IMG/VR virus record: IMGVR_UViG_3300025120_000179
Span: 1-38,760 of that record
Length of the DNA stretch: 38,760 bases
Source of the DNA: a virus
Reading direction: 5' to 3' (one strand)
Part shown: one piece after another, positions 3,319 through 38,760 of the stretch
Numbering within the stretch: position 1 is the first letter of the stretch
How the letters are laid out: the number at the start of each line of letters is the position of its first letter
Position numbers and translations under genes: made by a program
Notes under the pieces: generated by a model
The model's input: only the letters and a program-made list of their open reading frames with translations
Database searches by the model: none
What the model was told of the DNA's origin: nothing

Positions 3319-4283
3319 TATCGCATTTTAGCAGGACGTACACCCTTACGAGCAATACCTGCACCACGTACTTTAGCTTTACTGGTTCTTTTCTTAGCAC
3401 CACCTTTGGTGTTACCTTTGGTAGCCATACCACCACCTTTCATACCACCTTTGGTAGTCATACCACCACCTTTCATACCACCTTTGGTAGTCATACCACC
3501 ACCTTTCATACCACCTTTGGTAGTCATCATGCCGCCACCGGCTTTTAGGTTTACACCACGACCCATCAACACATCCTTTTGAGTTATCTTACCATCACCA
3601 CTTAGGTCTTTCATGCCGCCTTTGGCGTAACCCTTAGTGGTCATACCACCACCTTTCATACCACCTTTAGTACTCATTTTCGTTTTCATAGCGCCACCAC
3701 CTTTCATTTTAGGCATGTCCATACTCATCTCATCTTCACTAGGAGATATAAACTTACCTTTTCGTTTTTTGTTTGTCTTTTCGTTCATATAATCCCGTAA
3801 AGACTGCCCCGGAGCTAGGTCTTCTTTACTGACCGCCGCCATTTTTTTACCATCTTTTTCATAATATAAAGATCCAGCTTTTTTAGCCGCCGCCATGCTT
3901 TTATATTGCTCAAAGCCAGAAGGAGTTTGATTTGATTTTACTTTAGGAGGCGGGGTCATTGGGGTTGCAGGTTTACTAGCTACAACTTTTTTACTAGCCG
4001 CCTTTACTTGATCAGCTTTTTTACCAAGAGCTTTAGCTTCTTGCTCGCTTTTACGTATATTAAACCCTTTACCTACAGGTTTAGCGCTTTGCGCTTTAAA
4101 ATTAGGAGGAGTTTTCTTAGCTACTTTTTTAAAAGGTTTAGTATCTTCCTCCTTCGTCTGTTTTGTAAAAGGCTTAGTATCTTTTTTCTTCGTTTGTTTT
4201 TTAAACTTTGCCTTCCTTTTACTTTCTGCACGACGATTTTTGGCTGTATTATCGGCCTTAAACATATCAAAGATACCCATCAT
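3318..4283 (-). CDS. Lys/Gly-rich repeat protein with an EF-hand-type loop
   Basis: A 321-residue, extremely basic and low-complexity protein. Residues 1-110 are Lys-rich, apparently disordered sequence. The last third holds tandem MTTKGGMKGGG units, interrupted by DLSGDGKITQKDV, which matches a dockerin/EF-hand calcium loop (D-x-S-x-D-G-x-I-x-x-x-D). The C-terminus repeats the RG-x-G motif of the 45-residue protein at 1622-1759. Two adjacent ATGs (4283 and 4280) are possible; the second is better spaced from AGGAG. Function is unknown; a virion-internal or decoration role is inferred from location. Confidence 0.7.
   Translation of the reverse strand: MMGIFDMFKADNTAKNRRAESKRKAKFKKQTKKKDTKPFTKQTKEEDTKPFKKVAKKTPPNFKAQSAKPVGKGFNIRKSEQEAKALGKKADQVKAASKKVVASKPATPMTPPPKVKSNQTPSGFEQYKSMAAAKKAGSLYYEKDGKKMAAVSKEDLAPGQSLRDYMNEKTNKKRKGKFISPSEDEMSMDMPKMKGGGAMKTKMSTKGGMKGGGMTTKGYAKGGMKDLSGDGKITQKDVLMGRGVNLKAGGGMMTTKGGMKGGGMTTKGGMKGGGMTTKGGMKGGGMATKGNTKGGAKKRTSKAKVRGAGIARKGVRPAKMR
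3428..3526 (-). repeat. Three tandem 33-bp coding repeats
   Basis: Three near-identical 33-bp units run head to tail inside the Lys/Gly-rich gene. Each encodes the 11-residue unit MTTKGGMKGGG. Degenerate copies flank them, including one near 3635-3675 beyond the EF-hand-like loop. DNA-level identity implies recent expansion by slippage or recombination rather than ancient protein repeats. Confidence 0.85.
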
Positions 4284-16423: not shown

Positions 16424-16460
16424 CCCCTGTTCACCTTCGGGTGGATGGGGGATTTTTTTT
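16424..16460 (+). terminator. Rho-independent terminator ending the GC-rich gene trio
   Basis: CACC-TTCG-GGTG (16432-16443) forms a stable C(UUCG)G hairpin. It is extended by outer CCCC (16424-16427) pairing with GGGG (16447-16450) and followed by eight T residues at 16453-16460. It lies immediately downstream of the small membrane protein gene and insulates it from the repeat region. Confidence 0.85.
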
Positions 16461-16466
16461 GGCTTT

Positions 16467-16498
16467 GAAACCAGTTCCTCTAGTAGCGTAGCGCATAG
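16467..16498 (+). repeat. Direct repeat copy 1 (GAAACCAGTTCC ... TAGTAGCGTAGCG)
   Basis: This 32-base element begins GAAACCAGTTCC and ends GTAGCGCATAG. It recurs 124 bp downstream with only a few differences. It directly follows the terminator T-run of the GC-rich trio. A shorter 13-base version occurs at 23783-23795. Confidence 0.85.
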
Positions 16499-16590: not shown

Positions 16591-16622
16591 GAAACCAGTT
16601 CCCTTAGTAGCGTAGCGTATAG
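16591..16622 (+). repeat. Direct repeat copy 2 (GAAACCAGTTCCC ... TAGTAGCGTAGCG)
   Basis: The second copy of the 32-base element is preceded, about 18 bases upstream, by a TCCT-N5-AGGAG hairpin and a TCTTCTCT stretch. The 23783 copy has the same context of hairpin, TTCTCT and then GAAACCAGTTCCC. Confidence 0.85.
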
Positions 16623-16672: not shown

Positions 16673-16739
16673 AATGTTCCCTTGTAATGTTCCAAATGTT
16701 CCGCAATGTTCCCCTAATGTTCCCTTAGAACGGAACATT
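16673..16739. repeat. Iteron-like cluster of AATGTTCC sites
   Basis: Five direct AATGTTCC octamers start at 16673, 16686, 16695, 16705 and 16716, with start-to-start spacings of 9 to 13 bases. One inverted GGAACATT lies at 16732-16739. Further sites are at 16857 (direct), 16999 and 17059 (inverted), with GGAACA half-sites at 17007 and 17049. Spacing near one helical turn suggests cooperative protein binding. Confidence 0.85.
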
Positions 16740-17130
16740 GTCTAATACTGGCTATTGCTATCAGGCAGGGTCATTCCCTATCTAGAAGTATCGGATTAAG
16801 ACTGTCTAAAACTGTCTAAAAGTATTTAAAAGTATTATATATATATATATATACCTAATGTTCCCTTTTATTGAAATAGTATTTAGTCCCTCAGAGACTT
16901 CCTCAATACTCACCCCCGTCATATAAACCGGTTAACACGATAGTGTGTTCCTTTTTATATTCTCCTTTCTTAGGAGGCATACAAAAACGTCAAATTACGG
17001 AACATTGGAACAGTACTTGTATTTCAGTAACTTAGCCAACTACCCTACGGAACAGTGTGGAACATTATCAATAGACACTATTAACCACTATTAGACAGTA
17101 ACCCCTCCTACTAGGTAGTTTATGACAATA

Positions 17131-17140
17131 TGTGTATAAT
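17131..17140 (+). promoter_or_regulatory. Candidate early promoter -10 element
   Basis: A perfect TATAAT at 17135-17140 is preceded by TGTG. No TTGACA-like hexamer is at the right distance, so it would be an extended -10-like or activator-dependent promoter. It lies 70 bases before the first early gene and just after the last GGAACATT site, so a protein bound to those sites could control it. Confidence 0.4.
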
Positions 17141-18415: not shown

Positions 18416-19228
18416 ATGGCTAAGAGAAACTATTTTACTAAAAAAGGCACAAAGCAAGGGGCGCTCGTTGACTGCATCAAGCACTTGAATGAGCATACAA
18501 GAGAGGGCTTCAGCACTATCTGGGATTTGCGCGATCAACTCCCTTACTTTCACGACAATATAGTCCCGAAAGCTGTCCACATTCCTGACCTGTACACCAT
18601 ACTGTACAAGATTGGTGTGTCCACAGGTGTATGCGAGGTGCGGTTCCGGATAAGGGTTTCGACCACGTCCCTGTCGGGTGATTCAGCCGTGATGCTAATG
18701 ACACCGGCAGAGTATAGCGCCTATCGGAAGAACCTTCCAAGGGGTATCGATAAAGCTATGGACTATCGCGCGGCGGTGTTTATATTGGCAAGTGCGGAAC
18801 ACTATCAGAAGCGTATGGACGCTAAGAAAGCATCCGTGGCAAAGAGAAAGAAGAAGCAGGAAGATAAAACCCCCATACCCATGCATGAGAAGTCGTTCTA
18901 TGACCGAGTGGCAAAGCGGTACGATACGCCCGTTGTGGAGGATGGCACGATCAACATGCCGCAACTACCCACAAGCCAAGAAGTATACAACGCCAAGACA
19001 GATGCCGAGGTCGACCAGCAACTAAAAGACTTCTTCACGGACGAGTCCCCTACAACAGAGGACAAGCCGATTATCCCGGTAGAAGAATCCAATTCAGAAC
19101 CTGCCGGGGTGGAACCCCTAAAGGCACTACATATAGACCTGTCCTATACACGACTAGCTATAGGTATTGCCGGCGGTGTCTTCGTCGGTATGATCGTCAG
19201 TAACCTAATCACTCTACTTTTTATATAA
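18416..19228 (+). CDS. Tail-anchored membrane protein of the MoxR/VWA cassette
   Basis: A 270-residue product with a soluble N-terminal domain of about 130 residues (MAKRNYFTKKGTKQGALVDC; YRKNLPRGIDKAMDYRAAVF). A Lys-rich linker (VAKRKKKQEDK) and an acidic disordered region follow. The protein ends in one hydrophobic span (LAIGIAGGVFVGMIVSNLITLLFI, about residues 247-270), so it is anchored by the C-terminus with the bulk in the cytoplasm. The start has AAGGAG upstream. No enzyme motif is visible. It may place the ATPase/VWA complex at the membrane, but that is inference. Confidence 0.65.
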   Translation: MAKRNYFTKKGTKQGALVDCIKHLNEHTREGFSTIWDLRDQLPYFHDNIVPKAVHIPDLYTILYKIGVSTGVCEVRFRIRVSTTSLSGDSAVMLMTPAEYSAYRKNLPRGIDKAMDYRAAVFILASAEHYQKRMDAKKASVAKRKKKQEDKTPIPMHEKSFYDRVAKRYDTPVVEDGTINMPQLPTSQEVYNAKTDAEVDQQLKDFFTDESPTTEDKPIIPVEESNSEPAGVEPLKALHIDLSYTRLAIGIAGGVFVGMIVSNLITLLFI

Positions 19229-29155: not shown

Positions 29156-29205
29156 GATAGAAAAACATCTTAAAGTTCATATTTCGACCTATGAGGAAAT
29201 GTAAG

Positions 29206-29481
29206 ATGCAAGAAAATAGTGAACCCTTAGTACCAATGGAGGATGTTGCGAAGCACTTTGCCGTATCTACTTCATGCCTTCGCTCATGGTTTCGTAGAGG
29301 TCAAATACCTCCGCACACCTATATCAAGGTAGGTAACACTAAACGGTTTCGTCTGAAGGCGTTAGAAGAAGCTCTGCGCGGTACTACCCCCCTTAAACCA
29401 TCGGCGTTAGAAGGGGTAGATGATACTCCTAGAGAAGATCCAACCAACTTTGATATTGATGATCTTCTTGAGGACATATAA
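29206..29481 (+). CDS. Excisionase-type helix-turn-helix protein
   Basis: The product is 91 residues from ATG 29206, which has GAGGAA six bases upstream; the in-frame ATG at 29191 has none. VPMEDVAKHFAVSTSCLRSW followed by FRRGQIPPHTYIKVGNTKRF is a MerR/excisionase-like winged helix-turn-helix. The tail is acidic. There is no integrase in the window, so a regulatory or DNA-bending role is more likely than excision. It is one base from the nuclease gene. Confidence 0.75.
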   Translation: MQENSEPLVPMEDVAKHFAVSTSCLRSWFRRGQIPPHTYIKVGNTKRFRLKALEEALRGTTPLKPSALEGVDDTPREDPTNFDIDDLLEDI

Positions 29482-31054: not shown

Positions 31055-33838
31055 ATGGAAACTAGACTATTTTTAGATAGCGTATTAGGTGGTGAAGGTA
31101 GGTACTGTCTCTTTGGGGCAAGGAAGTCTGCTCCTCGTATAGTTCAAAATTTTTATTCCTCAGTAGGGGAGCTTTTACAAGCCGCTGACGAACTAAATGC
31201 AATTAACTATGACACCTACTTTGCATTAGGTACATTCGATGAAAACGACTCTCGTAAGGCTACTAATGTTTTAAGTTTAAGCTCGCTATTCCTAGACTTA
31301 GACTGTGGGCCGTCTAAAGACTATGCCACTCAGAAGGACGCAATTATAGGGTTACAGTCCTTTTGCAAGAAACTATCCTTACCAAAACCCACCGTAGTAA
31401 ATTCTGGTCGTGGTATACACGTATACTGGGCCTTACATGAGCCAATAACACCAGAGGAGTGGTTGCCTGTAGCTCAATGTTTGAAGAGCGCATGTAACCT
31501 TCACGGACTTAGAGCCGACCCTGCCGTAACCGCAGATGTAGCGAGAGTACTGCGCGTACCCAACACTCACAATTATAAGACCGATCCTCCCAGTGAAGTT
31601 GTCTGTATGACTATGGGGGAACCAGTTAATCTTGATGTGTTTTATGAACTACTTGGTGGGGAGGAGTTAACACCACCAACAGAGATAGTGTCTTCGCCGG
31701 AAGACAAGTACGCGCACCTAGAGAGTAGCTTTAAAGATGTACTTGTAAAGAGTAGCAAGGGGAATGGGTGTGAGCAAATACGGATAGCCTTGACTGATAA
31801 AGACAACGTGTCTGAACCAACATGGAGAGGCATTCTATCTATACTGAAAGCGTCCGTGGATGGTAGCAGGGACAAAGCCCACGCTATATCTAAAGGGTAC
31901 AGCGGGTACAGCGAGTACGAGACCAATGCGAAATGGGACAACCTATCCCCCTCTATGCCGTATAGCTGTGTAAGGTTTAATGAACATAATCCAGACATCT
32001 GCCTTAAATGCCCTCATTGGTTGAAGGTAGGCTCTCCAATAACACTAGGTAATAGGACTAAGGAGGCATCAGAAACCACTGTAGAAGCTCCTGCGGCAAG
32101 TATACCTACCTCTCCTATAACCACATACACAATACCGGCATACCCCAAACCTTATTTTAGGGGGGTGAACGGTGGAGTATATCTAAGGACTACAGACAGA
32201 GAAGGTGACCCCATAGAAGTAAACATATACCACAATGACCTATATGTGGTTAAGCGTATAAATGATATAGAGACAGGTGAGTCCATAGTCTTACGTTTAC
32301 ACTTGCCCAAGGACGGGGTAAAAGAGTTTACCATGCCATTAACGGCAGTCACAGCTAAAGAAGAGTTCCGTAGGCAAATGTCCATGATGGGCGTGGCCTT
32401 AATGAGGATGGATGATTTAATGCAGTACATAACAACTTGGGTTAATGAACTACAAGCATCGGGAGGTGCAACTATGGCGCACAAACAGTTTGGGTGGGTT
32501 GGTGAAGACTGTAAGTCTTTTATTCTAGGTAACCAAGAAATATTCGCAGACAGGATAGAGTTTAACCCTCCATCTAACCAGACAATAGGGCTTATGCCCG
32601 CTTTTGAACCTAAAGGCACGTTGGAGGGGTGGAAGGAAACAATAAACTTTTATAACCGCGAGGGCTTTGAACTGCATCAGTATGTAGTCGGCGCAGGATT
32701 TGGCTCTATCCTTATGAAGTTTATGGGGGAGATAAGTTGTGCCGCGCTTCACTTGCACAGTAAAGAATCTGGGGTAGGTAAAACTACCGCTTTACTAGCC
32801 GCTTTATCTGTATGGGGTAGGCCCGACGAACTTCTCTTGCAAGAGAGGGACACGTACAACAGTAAAATGAACCGTGGTGAGGTTATGCATAACTTACCCC
32901 TGTGTATGGACGAGCTAACCAACTCATCAGGCAAACAGCTTAGTGACATAGCGTATCAGTTTACTAGTGGTAAGCAACGTATGCGTATGTCTGGAGGTAG
33001 TAATGCGGAAAGATACAGGGGCGAGCCTTGGAACTTAATCGCTATAACCACAGGTAATACAAGTATGGTAGAGCTTATAGGGACATATAAGTCTATGCCA
33101 AAAGCAGAAGCACAGCGTATATTTGAGGTTAAGGTTAAGCGTATATTTAATAGTTCAAACGATAAAGGTATGACAGACGAGTTCGCACGGAACCTACTGG
33201 CAAACTGTGGTTGGGCGGGAGTCATTTTCGTACAGCACATACTAAATAACTTAGATGCTGTTAAAGACCTTATAGGTCAAGTACAAGAGCGCGTGGACAA
33301 ACTTGCCAACCTCGTAGCTGAAAACAGGTTCTGGTCAGCGCAAGTAACGGGCAGTATATGTGGGTTGATTTTAGCTAGACAAGCGGGCCTTCTGGACTTT
33401 TCCATAGAGCATGTATTTAACTGGGCTATCGAAGAAGCCAAGGGTAACAAGTTACGTTCTGACGATATGGGTTCTTCGGCTCAACAGATACTAAACGATT
33501 ATATTAACGAGCATTGGGGCAACGTACTGTGGATTAAAAGTACAGACGATGCACGTAGTAAGGACGGGACTGACCCATTGGTTATAGCGGAGTCTATGCC
33601 TAAAGGTAAGCTGATCGCTAGATATGAGGTTGACACTAAAAAGGTTTACTTAGTACCTAAGCCCTTGAAGGAGTGGTGTGGTAAACAGCAGATAAACTAC
33701 GAGTCTCTTATAGAGGATTTTATAAACGACATGGAGGGTGTGCGAGGTAATACGCGGTTAAGTAAGGGTACGCACGTAGTCCTACCTAAGAGCCGTGTAA
33801 TCATAGTTAAATGCGATCTAGATGTTAAAAATAGGTGA
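31055..33838 (+). CDS. AEP primase-DUF927 helicase fusion
   Basis: The 927-residue replication protein has an N-terminal primase-polymerase of the archaeo-eukaryotic type: DLD (81-83), SGRGIHVYW (117-125, with His122) and RVLRVPNTHNYK (164-175). A zinc-like CLKCPH (316-321) follows. The C-terminal DUF927 ATPase has Walker A ESGVGKTT (571-578), Walker B LCMDE (616-620) and sensor IAITTGN (662-668). It would prime and unwind the genome and replaces DnaG/DnaB-type proteins, of which none are seen here. The last 100 residues may form a winged helix. Confidence 0.85.
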   Translation: METRLFLDSVLGGEGRYCLFGARKSAPRIVQNFYSSVGELLQAADELNAINYDTYFALGTFDENDSRKATNVLSLSSLFLDLDCGPSKDYATQKDAIIGLQSFCKKLSLPKPTVVNSGRGIHVYWALHEPITPEEWLPVAQCLKSACNLHGLRADPAVTADVARVLRVPNTHNYKTDPPSEVVCMTMGEPVNLDVFYELLGGEELTPPTEIVSSPEDKYAHLESSFKDVLVKSSKGNGCEQIRIALTDKDNVSEPTWRGILSILKASVDGSRDKAHAISKGYSGYSEYETNAKWDNLSPSMPYSCVRFNEHNPDICLKCPHWLKVGSPITLGNRTKEASETTVEAPAASIPTSPITTYTIPAYPKPYFRGVNGGVYLRTTDREGDPIEVNIYHNDLYVVKRINDIETGESIVLRLHLPKDGVKEFTMPLTAVTAKEEFRRQMSMMGVALMRMDDLMQYITTWVNELQASGGATMAHKQFGWVGEDCKSFILGNQEIFADRIEFNPPSNQTIGLMPAFEPKGTLEGWKETINFYNREGFELHQYVVGAGFGSILMKFMGEISCAALHLHSKESGVGKTTALLAALSVWGRPDELLLQERDTYNSKMNRGEVMHNLPLCMDELTNSSGKQLSDIAYQFTSGKQRMRMSGGSNAERYRGEPWNLIAITTGNTSMVELIGTYKSMPKAEAQRIFEVKVKRIFNSSNDKGMTDEFARNLLANCGWAGVIFVQHILNNLDAVKDLIGQVQERVDKLANLVAENRFWSAQVTGSICGLILARQAGLLDFSIEHVFNWAIEEAKGNKLRSDDMGSSAQQILNDYINEHWGNVLWIKSTDDARSKDGTDPLVIAESMPKGKLIARYEVDTKKVYLVPKPLKEWCGKQQINYESLIEDFINDMEGVRGNTRLSKGTHVVLPKSRVIIVKCDLDVKNR

Positions 33839-34037
33839 CATAAATCCCGATGGGATAAGGGTAATAATTAACTGGGAGCGGATGGTCGTGGGGGCATCCG
33901 TTTTTGTTTTGTGCGTCAACACTGAGAAAGCTATATCGCAGTTAACTAAGATAACTCAGGCAAAAGGTTGGGACTCAACCATACGAACAGTTACAGAGGA
34001 CGGTAAGCTAGGGGTGCGTATATGGCGGGTTACTTAA
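33822..34037 (+). CDS. Small unknown protein after the primase
   Basis: The 71-residue product starts within the last codons of the primase gene (17-base overlap). It has MLKIGDINPDGIRVIINWER, then AISQLTKITQAKGWDSTIRT and a C-terminal GVRIWRVT. This reads as a small alpha-beta domain. Its stop overlaps the stop of the convergent giant gene by four bases. Function is unknown. Confidence 0.55.
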   Translation: MLKIGDINPDGIRVIINWERMVVGASVFVLCVNTEKAISQLTKITQAKGWDSTIRTVTEDGKLGVRIWRVT

Positions 34038-37000
34038 AGCTGATTCTTTCTACGCTCTGCCTCGTCAAGTACCATGTTCATAGTCACGTTAACGTACTCA
34101 TCGTTGTGGTCATCTAGGGCGGCTCTAAACTGAGGCTGAACTCTTAGTCCATTCACAGTCTCGTTTCTTGCTTGCATATCGCCTTTTGCTGAACGCCTCA
34201 ACACTGCGTTAGTTATTGCAGGGTAGTCTATATGACGGTCATTCCACTTATCCATCCTATCGAAGTAGTTATCTACTAACTCATAATCCCCCATGTAGTT
34301 ACCTAGGTTTATATTACCTAAGATAGTATCTCGTTCTTGCATTATGGCATCTTGCTTTCTCTTAAACGAGGAGTTCCGCTGTTGTTGTGTAGCATACTCA
34401 TTGGGCTGAAACCCTAGGAATAGTCCCGCAGTGTCGCCAAACGATAGGTCGTCCATTATGACGGACTGCTTACGAGTCAGAAGCCCTTCATCTCTAGGTA
34501 CTCTAACGGCAGCGCGGTATGCGTTCCGTACAGCCGCTGGCATCATTGCCTCTCTCCCCCGCTCTACTTGCACACCGTTCTCAGCTTCAATAACTTCCTT
34601 TGCCCCTTTGTAGAACTGTGAACCTACACTCCATGCAGGGCCACCGAATGCATATGCAAATTCTTCTTCGGGAGTGGGGTCGTTGTTAAACTTGTTAGCC
34701 CGGAATACAAGGTTAGTAAGTGCTATTCTAGTGGATGTGTCTACACCAGTGAGTGCTACTAACGGCCCTTTATATCCAAGATCCCCAAGGTATTTTTGAG
34801 TTAACGTCTCGGCATCATCCTCTTGATCGTCTAAGAAGAACATATCTGCCATAGCAGTAACCATCCCGTATATAGGTATACCTTGCACACCCGCAAAGAA
34901 TAAACCTGAGAGATGCACCCCCACCAACTGCCCAAAGGCCTCGTTACGCAGTCTTATGTTTTCAGCGGTGTTGTTTGAGAATTTAATATTTTTAAGTAGC
35001 TGTTTGCCAGACTTGAACATGGTGTAGTACATCTGGATGCCATAGTTCTTATACATAAGAGCGACTCGCCCGATACCTTTTTGGGCTAGCCTAGAACCAG
35101 TCTCTAATGTAGAGCCTCCGTTTATTTCTTGCGTAGAGTACATAGCCGCATCTGCCGCTTTGTTCATCTGTTCTGTTGTAGGGTTAGCCCCATACTGCGC
35201 CAGTTCAAGTTTGTACGCCGCCATCATTGTAATCTGACGGTTAAACTGTTCCGCTTGGTGAAACATAATCGCGGACACACCTGTTAGTCGGTCAGCTACT
35301 GAATTAGTTCGCCCAGACTCGTCTATACCAAGACTGTCTGATATTATGGATGTGTTGAGTTGCCCTTGACCAGAGGCTGTAGTATACAAAGGCAGGAGAA
35401 GCTCTAGCTCTCTTTTTAGTTCAGCCGCTTTCTTCTTGTCTTTGGGATACTGCATATCGTCGCGTATCTTATAGTTACCATCAACATCTAACTCGTAATA
35501 GTTAACCATTGAGGGAGCTACAAACCCACTGGCTATAGAAGTCTCTCCTCCATACCCTACGCCATGAGATAGCCTACGATCAAACCCACTACCTGCAAAT
35601 ATCTTACCTGCATCACGCAAGGCCGCTGAAGTTTTTGTAAACCCGTACTTACCACTTAACATAGGTAGTGCAAACAGGGGTATTTGAGATGTATTAACTA
35701 ATGCGGAAGACACGTTTGCACCAAGAGTCCACATAAACGCCATGCGATTATATGGTTGCGCCCAGTCTCGCGTAGAAGAGCCTTTAGCAAAATCAGCACG
35801 TTTGCCCAATTCTGCTAAGTAAGCTGCTTTTTTAGGGTCATCTCCTGATAGGGGGTTGTTTTCTATCAACTCATCCATAGCCCTACTTATGTTTTCGGAA
35901 CCTTTGATCCGCTCTATCTGCCTAGCTAAGTCATAGGACTTAGTTTGCATAGCCCCTAATGCATCCCTGTCAAAGCCCGCTACGTTGTCTCGTTTTGTTA
36001 ACGACTTAGCGATTGAAGACTCAGGTAAAGCCTGTAAGAATATGTTAGTAAGTTCTTCCTTTATCTTTTTGTCTTTGACATTGGCTGCATCTAAGGCGGC
36101 TAAAACCTCTCCCATAAACGATTGAGAAGGGGCGTTATTTAATGACTTCCCCATCCCTGCTAGTTCGTCTGGGTTGTTGGCAAAGGGCTTAATGCTTTCT
36201 TTTACTACGTCAGAATCACCTTCTAACTCTTTCATAAACCTTTTTCTAGCGTTATTAGAGTCAAAGGTTGTTACTACATAGTCAGTGCTTGTACTGTAAG
36301 CCAACCAATAATCACCACTTCGTGTTAAGGGGAAGTAAGGTCGAATCTCGTTCCTAGCAAACAACTCGTTATATATTCTCAGCTTAATTCTGGCCCTACT
36401 ATCTTTGGACTTCTTATCTGTTCCAATTATTGTGTTGTCTATTCTTTTGTACAACACGCTCCTGAGATCGGCAAACTGGTTCTTATAGAACTCGCGTAAG
36501 AATATGTAGGTATCTTGTCCTTCTTTGCCAAGTCCTTTCCAATCCTCTTGCAGGAGCCGCCATACATCTGCTTTGTCTGGGTCAGGGTTCTTCTCAGGCA
36601 CAGCTTTTTTAACGGGCTTACCTTTGTTTATAAGCTCTACCGCTTTATCCCTTGCTACTAGTGTGTCGTGAGAACTTCGTACTTCTTTAAACTCAGGGTT
36701 AGTTTCTGGAGATGTCTCTTTATTGGGATTGTAGGTAGGGTTTTTGACGTACCTAATCAACCAGAATTTAGTGTATTCTTTTATATCATCAGTAGGGTCT
36801 ACACTGTTTGTAGTGCTGTCATACACGACTTTATCGAACAACTCTTTCTTCTTAGGGTTAGCCTTTAAGTACCGCGCTAAACGAAGTACAGCCGCATTTA
36901 CTTTGTTTTCAGCTTTACTTAACGCCCCACGTTGCTCTGTTATAGATTCCTGCACCTTTATAGCTCCCTTGATGTCCCCATACTCAGCGGACATATCTAC

Positions 37001-38760
37001 AATGGCTTGTAGTGGAGGTGCGCCCAACAAGAACTCGGTCACTTTCTTATAAGCATCTTTAGGTAGGTCAACCAACCTATCCATAAAGCTAGATACGTCT
37101 TTGGAGTACTTATTTAAGTTATCGTTGGGGTTAAGGTCTTTTACAGCCTTAGCTAGGGTATTCATAACAGGCACTTGTTGGCCTGTCTTTGATGCCATAA
37201 GCAAGTCCCCAGCATTACGATACTTTGGTGCTGGAGCCAGTGCTAGTTTGATGGCATCGTTGAGTTCAGTTATCTTTTTGTTAGCTGTAATCTGCATTGC
37301 TTCAGCTAAGGGTATTGTGGGCTTCCCTCGTAGCTTACGAAACCAGTTCCCTATAATGTTACGAACAACCGCTGTCACGGGTACGTTTGTACCTTTGCTA
37401 TAGATAGTGGCTAACTGCTGAACAAACTTAGGGTTACTAAGGAACTCTGATACAAACTCGTCTACATCAGTAGCACCGTATGAGCTGCCTAACGCTTCTC
37501 TCACACTGTTAAATTCTTTGGTTAGCTTCTTGGTAAGAGGATGGCTAGGGTTAGCTAACGTAGCTGATATACCGGCATGGGTCATCTCATGTATAAGGGT
37601 GTGTACGTTTAGCCCCTCTTTACCTAGGGTAATAGTGTTTGTTCTAGGGTTAAACTGCCCCGCTGCCGAGAGTTTATCTGATATCTTTACTACCGTAGTG
37701 CCTACTACTTTAGCAAGGGCTAAGGCGATCTCACGCAGTTCTTTAGGGCCACTCTTTGCTATCGTGTCTAATGCTTCTTTCAGAGAGGCTGGATCACCAT
37801 CACGAAGGATCGTAACCGTGGCACCGTCTAACGGAGGGGACGAAGCCTCCACCATAGCAGAAGGTAAAAATGGTAAATCCTCCGCATCTGCATTGCCAGA
37901 TAAATTTTCATTGTCCGCTAGGTCAACAGCGTCCTTTACCTCGTTAGGGTCAACAACAGCTTTTTTCTTTCCTGCCTTTTTTGTTGTTCTCTCGTCCTCT
38001 ATAAGTTTATTTAACTTTTTACGTTGAGTGGCATCTAGCTTTGAAGTTAAATTATCATAGACCTCAGTCGCTTTGATCTCATTGCCCTTGCCTTCTTGGA
38101 CTGCAACGTCAACCTTATCTTTCCCTAATAATTTTTCTAAAGCTCGTTGCCTCTGCCCTATTGTAGTTTTAGTAGCACCGCCTTTAACTTGAGTAGCACC
38201 GTCTGTAGCTTCAGTAGCACCGCCTGTAGTTGTAGCAGGTAATACCCCATCTTTAACATAAGAAGTAACTATAGACTCAGTACGTAACCCTTCAAGACCT
38301 TCAAGATTTAGTAACTGATCACGAAAAGCAGCTAGACGTTGTTTTTTAATTTTTGGTGAAAGTTTAGGGTTTTTAAGTACACCTACCACACCCTTGTATC
38401 TTTCTTCTGTTTGCAAGTTAGAAGGAATAAATAAATCAACAAGACTTCCTCCTCCCTCTATGTACTGACCTACTGTAAGGTCAGCCTCATTAGTAGCAGC
38501 TAGATCAGGGTTAACATTAGCCGCATCTTTTTTAGCCTTTATATAATTTACTACATCTTGTTTAAGAATTTTACCGTCTTTACCTGTACCAGTAACATCA
38601 GTTAACTCTATGTTATTTTTTGCGGCTAATTCACCGGCAATGGGAGTAGCATTAACAACAGCAGTTCTAGGTTTTATATCAGCAGTAGTAAGATCGTCTA
38701 GATCTACTTGTGGGGCAGCAGTAGCACCAGCAGTAGCACCAGCAGTAGCACCAGCAGTAG
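34034..38760 (-). CDS. Giant virion/ejection-type polyvalent protein, zincin and E3-binding-like domains, N-terminus missing
   Basis: At least 1574 residues; the frame is open to the window edge, and TTG 38416 is not a needed start. In order it has GATA tetrapeptide repeats (38714-38760) and an E3-binding-like module at 38528-38653 (ATPIAGELAAKN; GTGKDGKILKQDV). Charged linkers follow, then a zincin HEMTH (37577-37591) with a downstream DEFVSEF as possible third ligand. Next are long helices and two hydrophobic stretches (SALVNTSQIPLFALPML; LSGLFFAGVQGIPIYG), then a charged C-terminus. This layout fits polyvalent/internal virion proteins ejected with DNA. Peptidase activity and ejection are inferred. 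Confidence 0.75.
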   Translation of the reverse strand, partial: TAGATAGATAGATAAPQVDLDDLTTADIKPRTAVVNATPIAGELAAKNNIELTDVTGTGKDGKILKQDVVNYIKAKKDAANVNPDLAATNEADLTVGQYIEGGGSLVDLFIPSNLQTEERYKGVVGVLKNPKLSPKIKKQRLAAFRDQLLNLEGLEGLRTESIVTSYVKDGVLPATTTGGATEATDGATQVKGGATKTTIGQRQRALEKLLGKDKVDVAVQEGKGNEIKATEVYDNLTSKLDATQRKKLNKLIEDERTTKKAGKKKAVVDPNEVKDAVDLADNENLSGNADAEDLPFLPSAMVEASSPPLDGATVTILRDGDPASLKEALDTIAKSGPKELREIALALAKVVGTTVVKISDKLSAAGQFNPRTNTITLGKEGLNVHTLIHEMTHAGISATLANPSHPLTKKLTKEFNSVREALGSSYGATDVDEFVSEFLSNPKFVQQLATIYSKGTNVPVTAVVRNIIGNWFRKLRGKPTIPLAEAMQITANKKITELNDAIKLALAPAPKYRNAGDLLMASKTGQQVPVMNTLAKAVKDLNPNDNLNKYSKDVSSFMDRLVDLPKDAYKKVTEFLLGAPPLQAIVDMSAEYGDIKGAIKVQESITEQRGALSKAENKVNAAVLRLARYLKANPKKKELFDKVVYDSTTNSVDPTDDIKEYTKFWLIRYVKNPTYNPNKETSPETNPEFKEVRSSHDTLVARDKAVELINKGKPVKKAVPEKNPDPDKADVWRLLQEDWKGLGKEGQDTYIFLREFYKNQFADLRSVLYKRIDNTIIGTDKKSKDSRARIKLRIYNELFARNEIRPYFPLTRSGDYWLAYSTSTDYVVTTFDSNNARKRFMKELEGDSDVVKESIKPFANNPDELAGMGKSLNNAPSQSFMGEVLAALDAANVKDKKIKEELTNIFLQALPESSIAKSLTKRDNVAGFDRDALGAMQTKSYDLARQIERIKGSENISRAMDELIENNPLSGDDPKKAAYLAELGKRADFAKGSSTRDWAQPYNRMAFMWTLGANVSSALVNTSQIPLFALPMLSGKYGFTKTSAALRDAGKIFAGSGFDRRLSHGVGYGGETSIASGFVAPSMVNYYELDVDGNYKIRDDMQYPKDKKKAAELKRELELLLPLYTTASGQGQLNTSIISDSLGIDESGRTNSVADRLTGVSAIMFHQAEQFNRQITMMAAYKLELAQYGANPTTEQMNKAADAAMYSTQEINGGSTLETGSRLAQKGIGRVALMYKNYGIQMYYTMFKSGKQLLKNIKFSNNTAENIRLRNEAFGQLVGVHLSGLFFAGVQGIPIYGMVTAMADMFFLDDQEDDAETLTQKYLGDLGYKGPLVALTGVDTSTRIALTNLVFRANKFNNDPTPEEEFAYAFGGPAWSVGSQFYKGAKEVIEAENGVQVERGREAMMPAAVRNAYRAAVRVPRDEGLLTRKQSVIMDDLSFGDTAGLFLGFQPNEYATQQQRNSSFKRKQDAIMQERDTILGNINLGNYMGDYELVDNYFDRMDKWNDRHIDYPAITNAVLRRSAKGDMQARNETVNGLRVQPQFRAALDDHNDEYVNVTMNMVLDEAERRKNQL
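38714..38760 (-). repeat. 12-bp tandem repeat at the window edge
   Basis: About four copies of a 12-bp unit (plus strand GCAGTAGCACCA) run off the right edge. On the minus strand they encode the tetrapeptide Gly-Ala-Thr-Ala in the giant gene. A contig break inside a short tandem repeat is a common assembly artefact, so the true number of copies is unknown. Confidence 0.85.

Follow-up and report, generated by a model that had tools for sequence, protein, structure and literature searches.

A conserved octamer array around an AT-rich tract as the probable replication origin of a group of aquatic tailed phages

The DNA considered here is the IMG/VR virus record IMGVR_UViG_3300025120_000179, analyzed over its whole 38,760 bases (the window), and the question raised by its locus at 16.7–17.1 kb is whether an array of octamers beside a (TA)n tract serves as a replication origin or as a master operator, the two possibilities offered in a preliminary description of this DNA. 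The repeats very probably mark where DNA replication starts in a large and little-studied group of aquatic phages. The octamer AATGTTCC occurs nine times as an exact match in the 38.8-kb window (five direct copies, one inverted, one direct, and two inverted), compared with an expected count of 1.04, and 0 of 100 shuffles reached nine. All nine copies were found at the positions and on the strands assigned to them earlier and all are confined to the array locus, so the octamers are not spread at similar density over the window, a possibility that the preliminary description had itself raised. Direct copies in the left arm are spaced by 13, 9, 10, and 11 bp, and three additional copies that keep the TGTTCC core (16944–16951 on the plus strand, 17007–17014 and 17049–17056 on the minus strand) bring the array to 12 sites. 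The symmetric layout described earlier is right in outline, with direct copies on the left and inverted copies on the right, and the (TA)n tract is present, although its length is 18 bp (16836–16853) and not the 20 bp first given. A tandem ACTGTCTAAA lies at approximately 16801–16820 and an inverted TTAGACAGT near 17091. No Rfam or tRNA matches were found in the window, blastn of the array region against phage records gave no match, and an exact 24-mer from the flank had a sole match among viral contigs, in the relative designated L012.

Approximately 160 relatives were collected in two scans with AAA-protein and large-terminase alignments; their contigs are metagenomic fragments, and the collection matches may omit the records closest to the window. 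Among 60 non-redundant relatives that cover 3 kb or more of the region, 53 carry an array of seven or more sites, direct then inverted, compared with 1% of Markov control sequences, and 44 carry eight or more sites, compared with 0.3% of the controls. The arrays occupy the same divergent junction, which bears out the conservation among related phages that had been suggested as a check. Same-strand neighbors in the relatives are spaced 8–12 bp apart, with two at 13 bp, none at 5–7 or 14–15 bp, and more values near two turns. The usual family motif is AATGTTC followed by C, G, or T, and arrays of single genomes are built wholly of variants (AAAGTTCC, ACTGTTCG, AATGTTAC, TGTACC, AAAGTACG, or ATGTTTC). 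The dense cluster of sites occurs once per genome in eight long relatives. The weakest 40-bp duplex in the array, taken with margins of 100–150 bp, ranks in the lowest 0–0.85% of the surrounding 1–6.5-kb region in 47 of 47 arrays; it is typically located 120–250 bp from the first iteron, and the lone direct iteron often follows directly. The AT content is 64% in the arrays and 52% in the regions. The letters of the AT tract differ among relatives while its place and weakness persist, a pattern that, judging from predicted duplex stability, fits a DNA unwinding element.

The arrays are accompanied by an upstream 28-bp element, which has 82 matches, on one strand only, in the 420 bp left of the arrays and 7 elsewhere in 260 kb. 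Two to four same-strand copies lie left of the iterons in 39 of 47 arrays, compared with 2.5% of control stretches, and candidate roles for the element are those of an origin accessory site, a packaging site, or a promoter. Other repeats were also observed: CACTAAC or TTCGGGC is repeated near the array in other relatives, and the relative L015 repeats the palindrome GTGTTAGGGAATTCCCTAACAC in intergenic stretches (7400, 7952, 8257, 8901, 9922, and others), and at least one copy sits between a sigma-70 promoter, which it directly follows, and the ribosome site. This palindrome looks like a dispersed operator.

The preliminary description saw no matching initiator and expected the binding protein to be new. 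Instead, the best initiator candidate is a 927-aa protein, by homology a helicase of the Rep/Cch type known from Staphylococcus aureus pathogenicity islands (SaPIs), encoded at 31055 and one of the three proteins that the description had named for a binding assay; nothing in the analysis implicates the 17211 protein as the array reader. The sequence of the candidate matches SaPIbov1 Rep (8tch, E 4.9e-11), Cch (5dgk, E 4.5e-5), and Pfam DUF927 (3e-25), and its match to NCBIfam Cch1 (E 4.6e-5) is under the curated cut-off. An N-terminal DLD motif near residues 85–90, read by eye, is typical of archaeo-eukaryotic primases (AEP-like). For a template-free model of residues 700–927 the top matches are SaPIbov1 Rep and Cch (Foldseek 5e-5; VIA Z 7.3 and 8.2), and the modelled final 120 residues resemble winged helices. 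The primase-helicase is encoded by 24 of 25 long relatives, and a homologous helicase with 29% identity over most of its length is found in Pseudomonas phage Rollin (OR577172.1). Positions 1–700 of Rollin, before the rightward genes, are origin-like in appearance, with three direct TATGCAA and three inverted beside an AT tract, and palindromes AAAAGGTAGCAAGTTACTACCTTTT.

In SaPI Rep the C-terminal domain recognizes the origin iterons (PMC7581432). Covariation across 21 genomes, in which array-motif distance was compared with protein-segment distance by partial Mantel tests, suggests the same of the octamers described here: their reader appears to be the C-terminal domain of the primase-helicase that the virus itself encodes. 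Array-motif distance tracks helicase residues 805–927 once the remainder of the protein is corrected for (partial r 0.47, p 0.0005), and in a scan of 14 helicase segments of 122 residues, residues 794–915 alone stand out (r 0.43, p 0.001), with a signal of r 0.32 (p 0.008) when the most divergent genomes are left out. L012 is 91% identical to the window over 11.7 kb, and an A replaces the C at position 7 in 12 of 12 of its sites (TTAC versus TTCC). The enrichment of differences in sites relative to spacers is not significant (p 0.08), because the spacers vary too; what stands out is that all 12 sites change identically. The more distant relatives L119 and L122 are likewise of the TTAC type, and TTC-type arrays prevail across the wider family. 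Within the window/L012 subclade, TTAC is most likely the earlier state, because L004 is 98% identical to L012 where the two overlap. Helicase codon changes on the window branch (synonymous/replacement) number 17/1 in residues 1–730 and 3/6 in residues 731–927 (p 0.002).

Another protein of the replication module, HTH_17, which is the 29206 protein of the preliminary description, might bind the array as a head-to-tail polymer on the octamers and act as initiator or origin-remodelling protein, a reading that was favored early for the BldC fold and that we now regard as improbable. HTH_17 is present in 24 of 25 long relatives also having the helicase gene, its best PDB match, in sequence and fold alike, is BldC, and the 8–12-bp spacing of the iterons fits a small monomer of this kind; BldC forms a filament on 9-bp direct repeats AATTXXXX(C) (PMC5859096). 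However, iteron sequence shows no covariation with the DNA-binding domain of HTH_17 (r -0.14; partial r -0.35 in 21 genomes), and this domain has no window-derived change relative to L001, L002, and L004, though L004 is of the TTAC-type lineage, and L146 and L154 have almost identical HTH_17 domains, yet carry AAAGTTCC and AATGTTCC arrays, respectively. HTH_17 was demoted as the array reader by these covariation and branch tests. Its acidic C-terminal tail (DxDED-like) is kept across the family and is reminiscent of the partner-binding tail of single-stranded DNA-binding proteins.

The second function offered at the outset, in which the array serves chiefly as an operator for transcription, a master switch of the divergent early and late promoters, with an origin role that is absent or secondary, is very unlikely in our judgment. 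The array does lie between divergent operons, adjoining the rightward early promoter, and the concerted site change in L012 recalls the coevolution of repressor and operator. However, a weak-duplex tract kept inside the array and covariation with a replicative helicase domain are unexpected of an operator, which leaves both unexplained; the array sites are not scattered to other promoters in the window, and the palindromic operator-like repeats of L015 (GTGTTAGGGAATTCCCTAACAC) are separate from the array. Of the two proposed functions, the origin is supported by the conserved array, the AT-rich element, the position, and the initiator-type helicase, and the master operator is the poorer fit. 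A reading with very little probability is that the small terminase binds the array together with the upstream 28-bp elements, and that these make up a packaging site (pac/cos) or a genome end, as might be suggested by the gene beside the large terminase, which lies approximately 1.8 kb from the array and may encode the small subunit, and by the single orientation of all the upstream elements. The isolates HTVC027P, HTVC023P, 023Pt_psg01, DSL-LC04, and Pag-Yong1 have related large terminases with other replication genes and without HTH_17, and no upstream elements or comparable array were seen in 25-kb stretches of these five; eight scattered TGTTC/GAACA pentamers are present in 023Pt_psg01. 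The terminal-repeat or packaging reading was rejected on these isolates, which have related terminases without the conserved pieces, and the covariation of the iterons with the helicase also counts against it.

The reading preferred here is that the region is a phage replication origin, with octamers bound by the C-terminal winged helix of the primase-helicase and with bidirectional forks, and we consider this likely. It builds on the observed conservation of the array, its layout, its spacing, and its AT tract, on the homology of the helicase with SaPIbov1 Rep and Cch, and on the covariation of iterons and C-terminal domain. In the proposed course of events, the primase-helicase would bind the octamers via its C-terminal winged helix, the direct octamers on the left and the inverted octamers on the right would seat two opposed helicase assemblies around the AT-rich tract, and these assemblies would melt the tract, load, and prime, with forks departing both ways. 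The adjoining rightward early promoter may aid the opening or be controlled by the same binding. Several points weigh against the origin reading. Seven of the 60 relatives are under the array threshold; among those read by eye, some show weaker or changed arrays. Partial Mantel tests may overstate significance, p rises to 0.03 when the window-branch helicase changes are counted more loosely, and the iteron states of L002, L004, and L005 were inferred, so the branch test is indirect; the pairing of an L012-type array with an L004-type helicase is likewise inferred. Searched by itself, the C-terminal domain's sequence profile gave no match in the PDB, and VIA Z values of 7–8 are little above that of common arrangements. 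GC skew lends the origin no support: the cumulative minimum suggested earlier as a check is uninformative, as the turn near 17 kb merely tracks gene strand: in complete relatives, the two arms have similar skew on the coding strand. Finally, the origin of phage-inducible chromosomal islands (PICIs) and SaPIs is immediately 3' of the rep gene, whereas the window array at 16.7–17.1 kb is 14 kb upstream of the gene at 31.1–33.8 kb.

The window is evidently a fragment of a tailed-phage genome, because its right end cuts a large gene. The genes for the large terminase, portal, and major head protein run leftward from approximately 14.9 kb, and the replication operon runs rightward from 17.2 kb, comprising AAA, vWA-metallopeptidase, VRR-NUC-type endonuclease, family-A DNA polymerase, SNF2 helicase, HTH_17, DUF3799 nuclease, and primase-helicase; the array is located at the divergent junction of these operons, past the terminator at 16424–16451 (Table 1). 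The early promoter that the preliminary description placed just after the array is convincing in relatives, where a sigma-70 match of at least 10/12 lies within 300 bp right of the array in 38 of 47 (control 10%), but the window shows clearly only a TATAAT at 17135. A very large leftward protein at 34034–38758, cut by the contig end, matches families of giant phage proteins, the DarB-like antirestriction family among them; N4-like hairpin promoters for a virion RNA polymerase, prompted by the resemblance of the AAA/vWA genes to those of N4-like phages, were rejected on this protein's match to DarB-like models. In the structural region, a gene at 4280–4957 matches a phage 'ferredoxin' family (PHROG 3704), and a 33-bp unit is repeated 3.5 times at 98% within a leftward gene (3414–3527). 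The early 270-aa protein at 18416–19228, with a C-terminal membrane segment, is 67% identical to its L012 counterpart, compared with 84–99% for most neighbors, making its gene the fastest changing early gene between the two. A single Rhodobacterales contig from a metagenome-assembled genome, with a 77% identical terminase, is a mere hint at the host.

Table 1. Features of the proposed origin and of the associated genes in the window
Feature	Coordinates	Strand	Evidence or remarks
Upstream element copy 1, family consensus GAtaCCAGTTCC-n4-5-GtaGCG-nn-GaGCc	16467..16498	+	
Upstream element copy 2, same family consensus	16591..16622	+	
Intrinsic terminator ending small rightward genes left of the origin	16424..16451	+	
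Left arm, five direct AATGTTCC iterons (16673, 16686, 16695, 16705, 16716)	16673..16723	+	Position and layout kept in relatives
Inverted iteron closing the left arm	16732..16739	-	Same relative place in several relatives (layout +++++-+---)
Predicted AT-rich unwinding element, weakest 40 bp of the array neighborhood, contains (TA)9 at 16836-16853	16815..16854	.	L012 tract identical; equivalent tract in 47/47 arrays
Lone direct iteron immediately right of the AT tract	16857..16864	+	Same arrangement in many relatives
Degenerate iteron TGTGTTCC, TGTTCC core intact	16944..16951	+	Altered along with the other sites in L012
Right arm, back-to-back inverted iterons GGAACATT and GGAACAGT, 8-bp pitch	16999..17014	-	
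Right arm, inverted iterons GGAACAGT (17049) and GGAACATT (17059)	17049..17066	-	
Candidate -10 (TATAAT) of the rightward early promoter, without a good -35	17135..17140	+	Good sigma-70 promoters here in relatives
HTH_17 (BldC/Xis-like) winged-helix protein, acidic tail, conserved replication-module partner	29191..29481	+	No covariation with iterons
Proposed initiator, 927-aa primase-helicase, DUF927/SaPIbov1-Rep-like, SGVGKT Walker A	31055..33838	+	Homology
C-terminal winged helix (~aa 805-926), proposed iteron reader	33467..33832	+	Predicted fold, covariation, branch-specific replacements

It is possible, at somewhat less than even chances, that PICI-type origins are in use throughout this lineage of abundant aquatic tailed phages and that fast coevolution of octamer and winged helix gives near-identical phages, such as those of the window and L012, incompatible replication specificities. 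If so, the one-base-pair switch at all 12 sites, accompanied by changes in a handful of residues, would be the replication counterpart of repressor heteroimmunity, and satellites and phages would seem to have exchanged, or to share, an origin system. The occurrence of a PICI-type origin and its cognate helicase family across so large a group of aquatic tailed phages is relevant to the source of satellite replicons. The phage family is also a natural experiment in origin recognition, with dozens of origin/reader pairs and one near-relative pair in which every site is changed identically, and the protein-DNA code of the DUF927 helicase class becomes directly testable.

Among known systems, lambda has its ori within gene O, with iterons that are longer and partly palindromic. 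The window resembles it in having iterons beside an AT-rich tract and differs in that its octamers are intergenic, and no lambda O homologue was identified among the window proteins searched. The origins of iteron plasmids (Rep_3/RepA/TrfA) have iterons of 17–22 bp, in contrast to the 8-bp iterons at 8–12-bp pitch of the window, and no Rep_3-type Pfam match was found in the 20 window proteins scanned. In satellite phage P4, primase and helicase are fused in the alpha protein, whose C-terminal winged helix binds short iterons, and P4 uses two separate cis sites, ori and crr; the window is probably similar in initiator architecture but differs in helicase family. The window HTH_17 is closest in sequence and fold to the head-to-tail winged-helix proteins BldC, RdfS, and Xis, and BldC-type sites are small direct repeats, but the window protein does not covary with the array. 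The PICI/SaPI origin is similar to that of the window in helicase homology (SaPIbov1 Rep, Cch; DUF927) and probably in having a C-terminal iteron reader, and the primase is fused to the helicase as in some PICIs. In PICI origins an AT-rich region always lies between two sets of iterons, an arrangement matched by the window array and described in 2018 as common to PICIs and 'no other known bacterial replicon' (PMC6092414). The window adds lone iterons and the upstream 28-bp elements, and whereas a PICI is a satellite without structural genes of its own, the window encodes a large terminase, a portal, and a major head protein. Because these structural genes are present and 14 kb separate the origin from the initiator gene, the window is classed as having a PICI-type origin and not as a PICI, and the best reading of the locus is a PICI-type origin in ordinary tailed phages.
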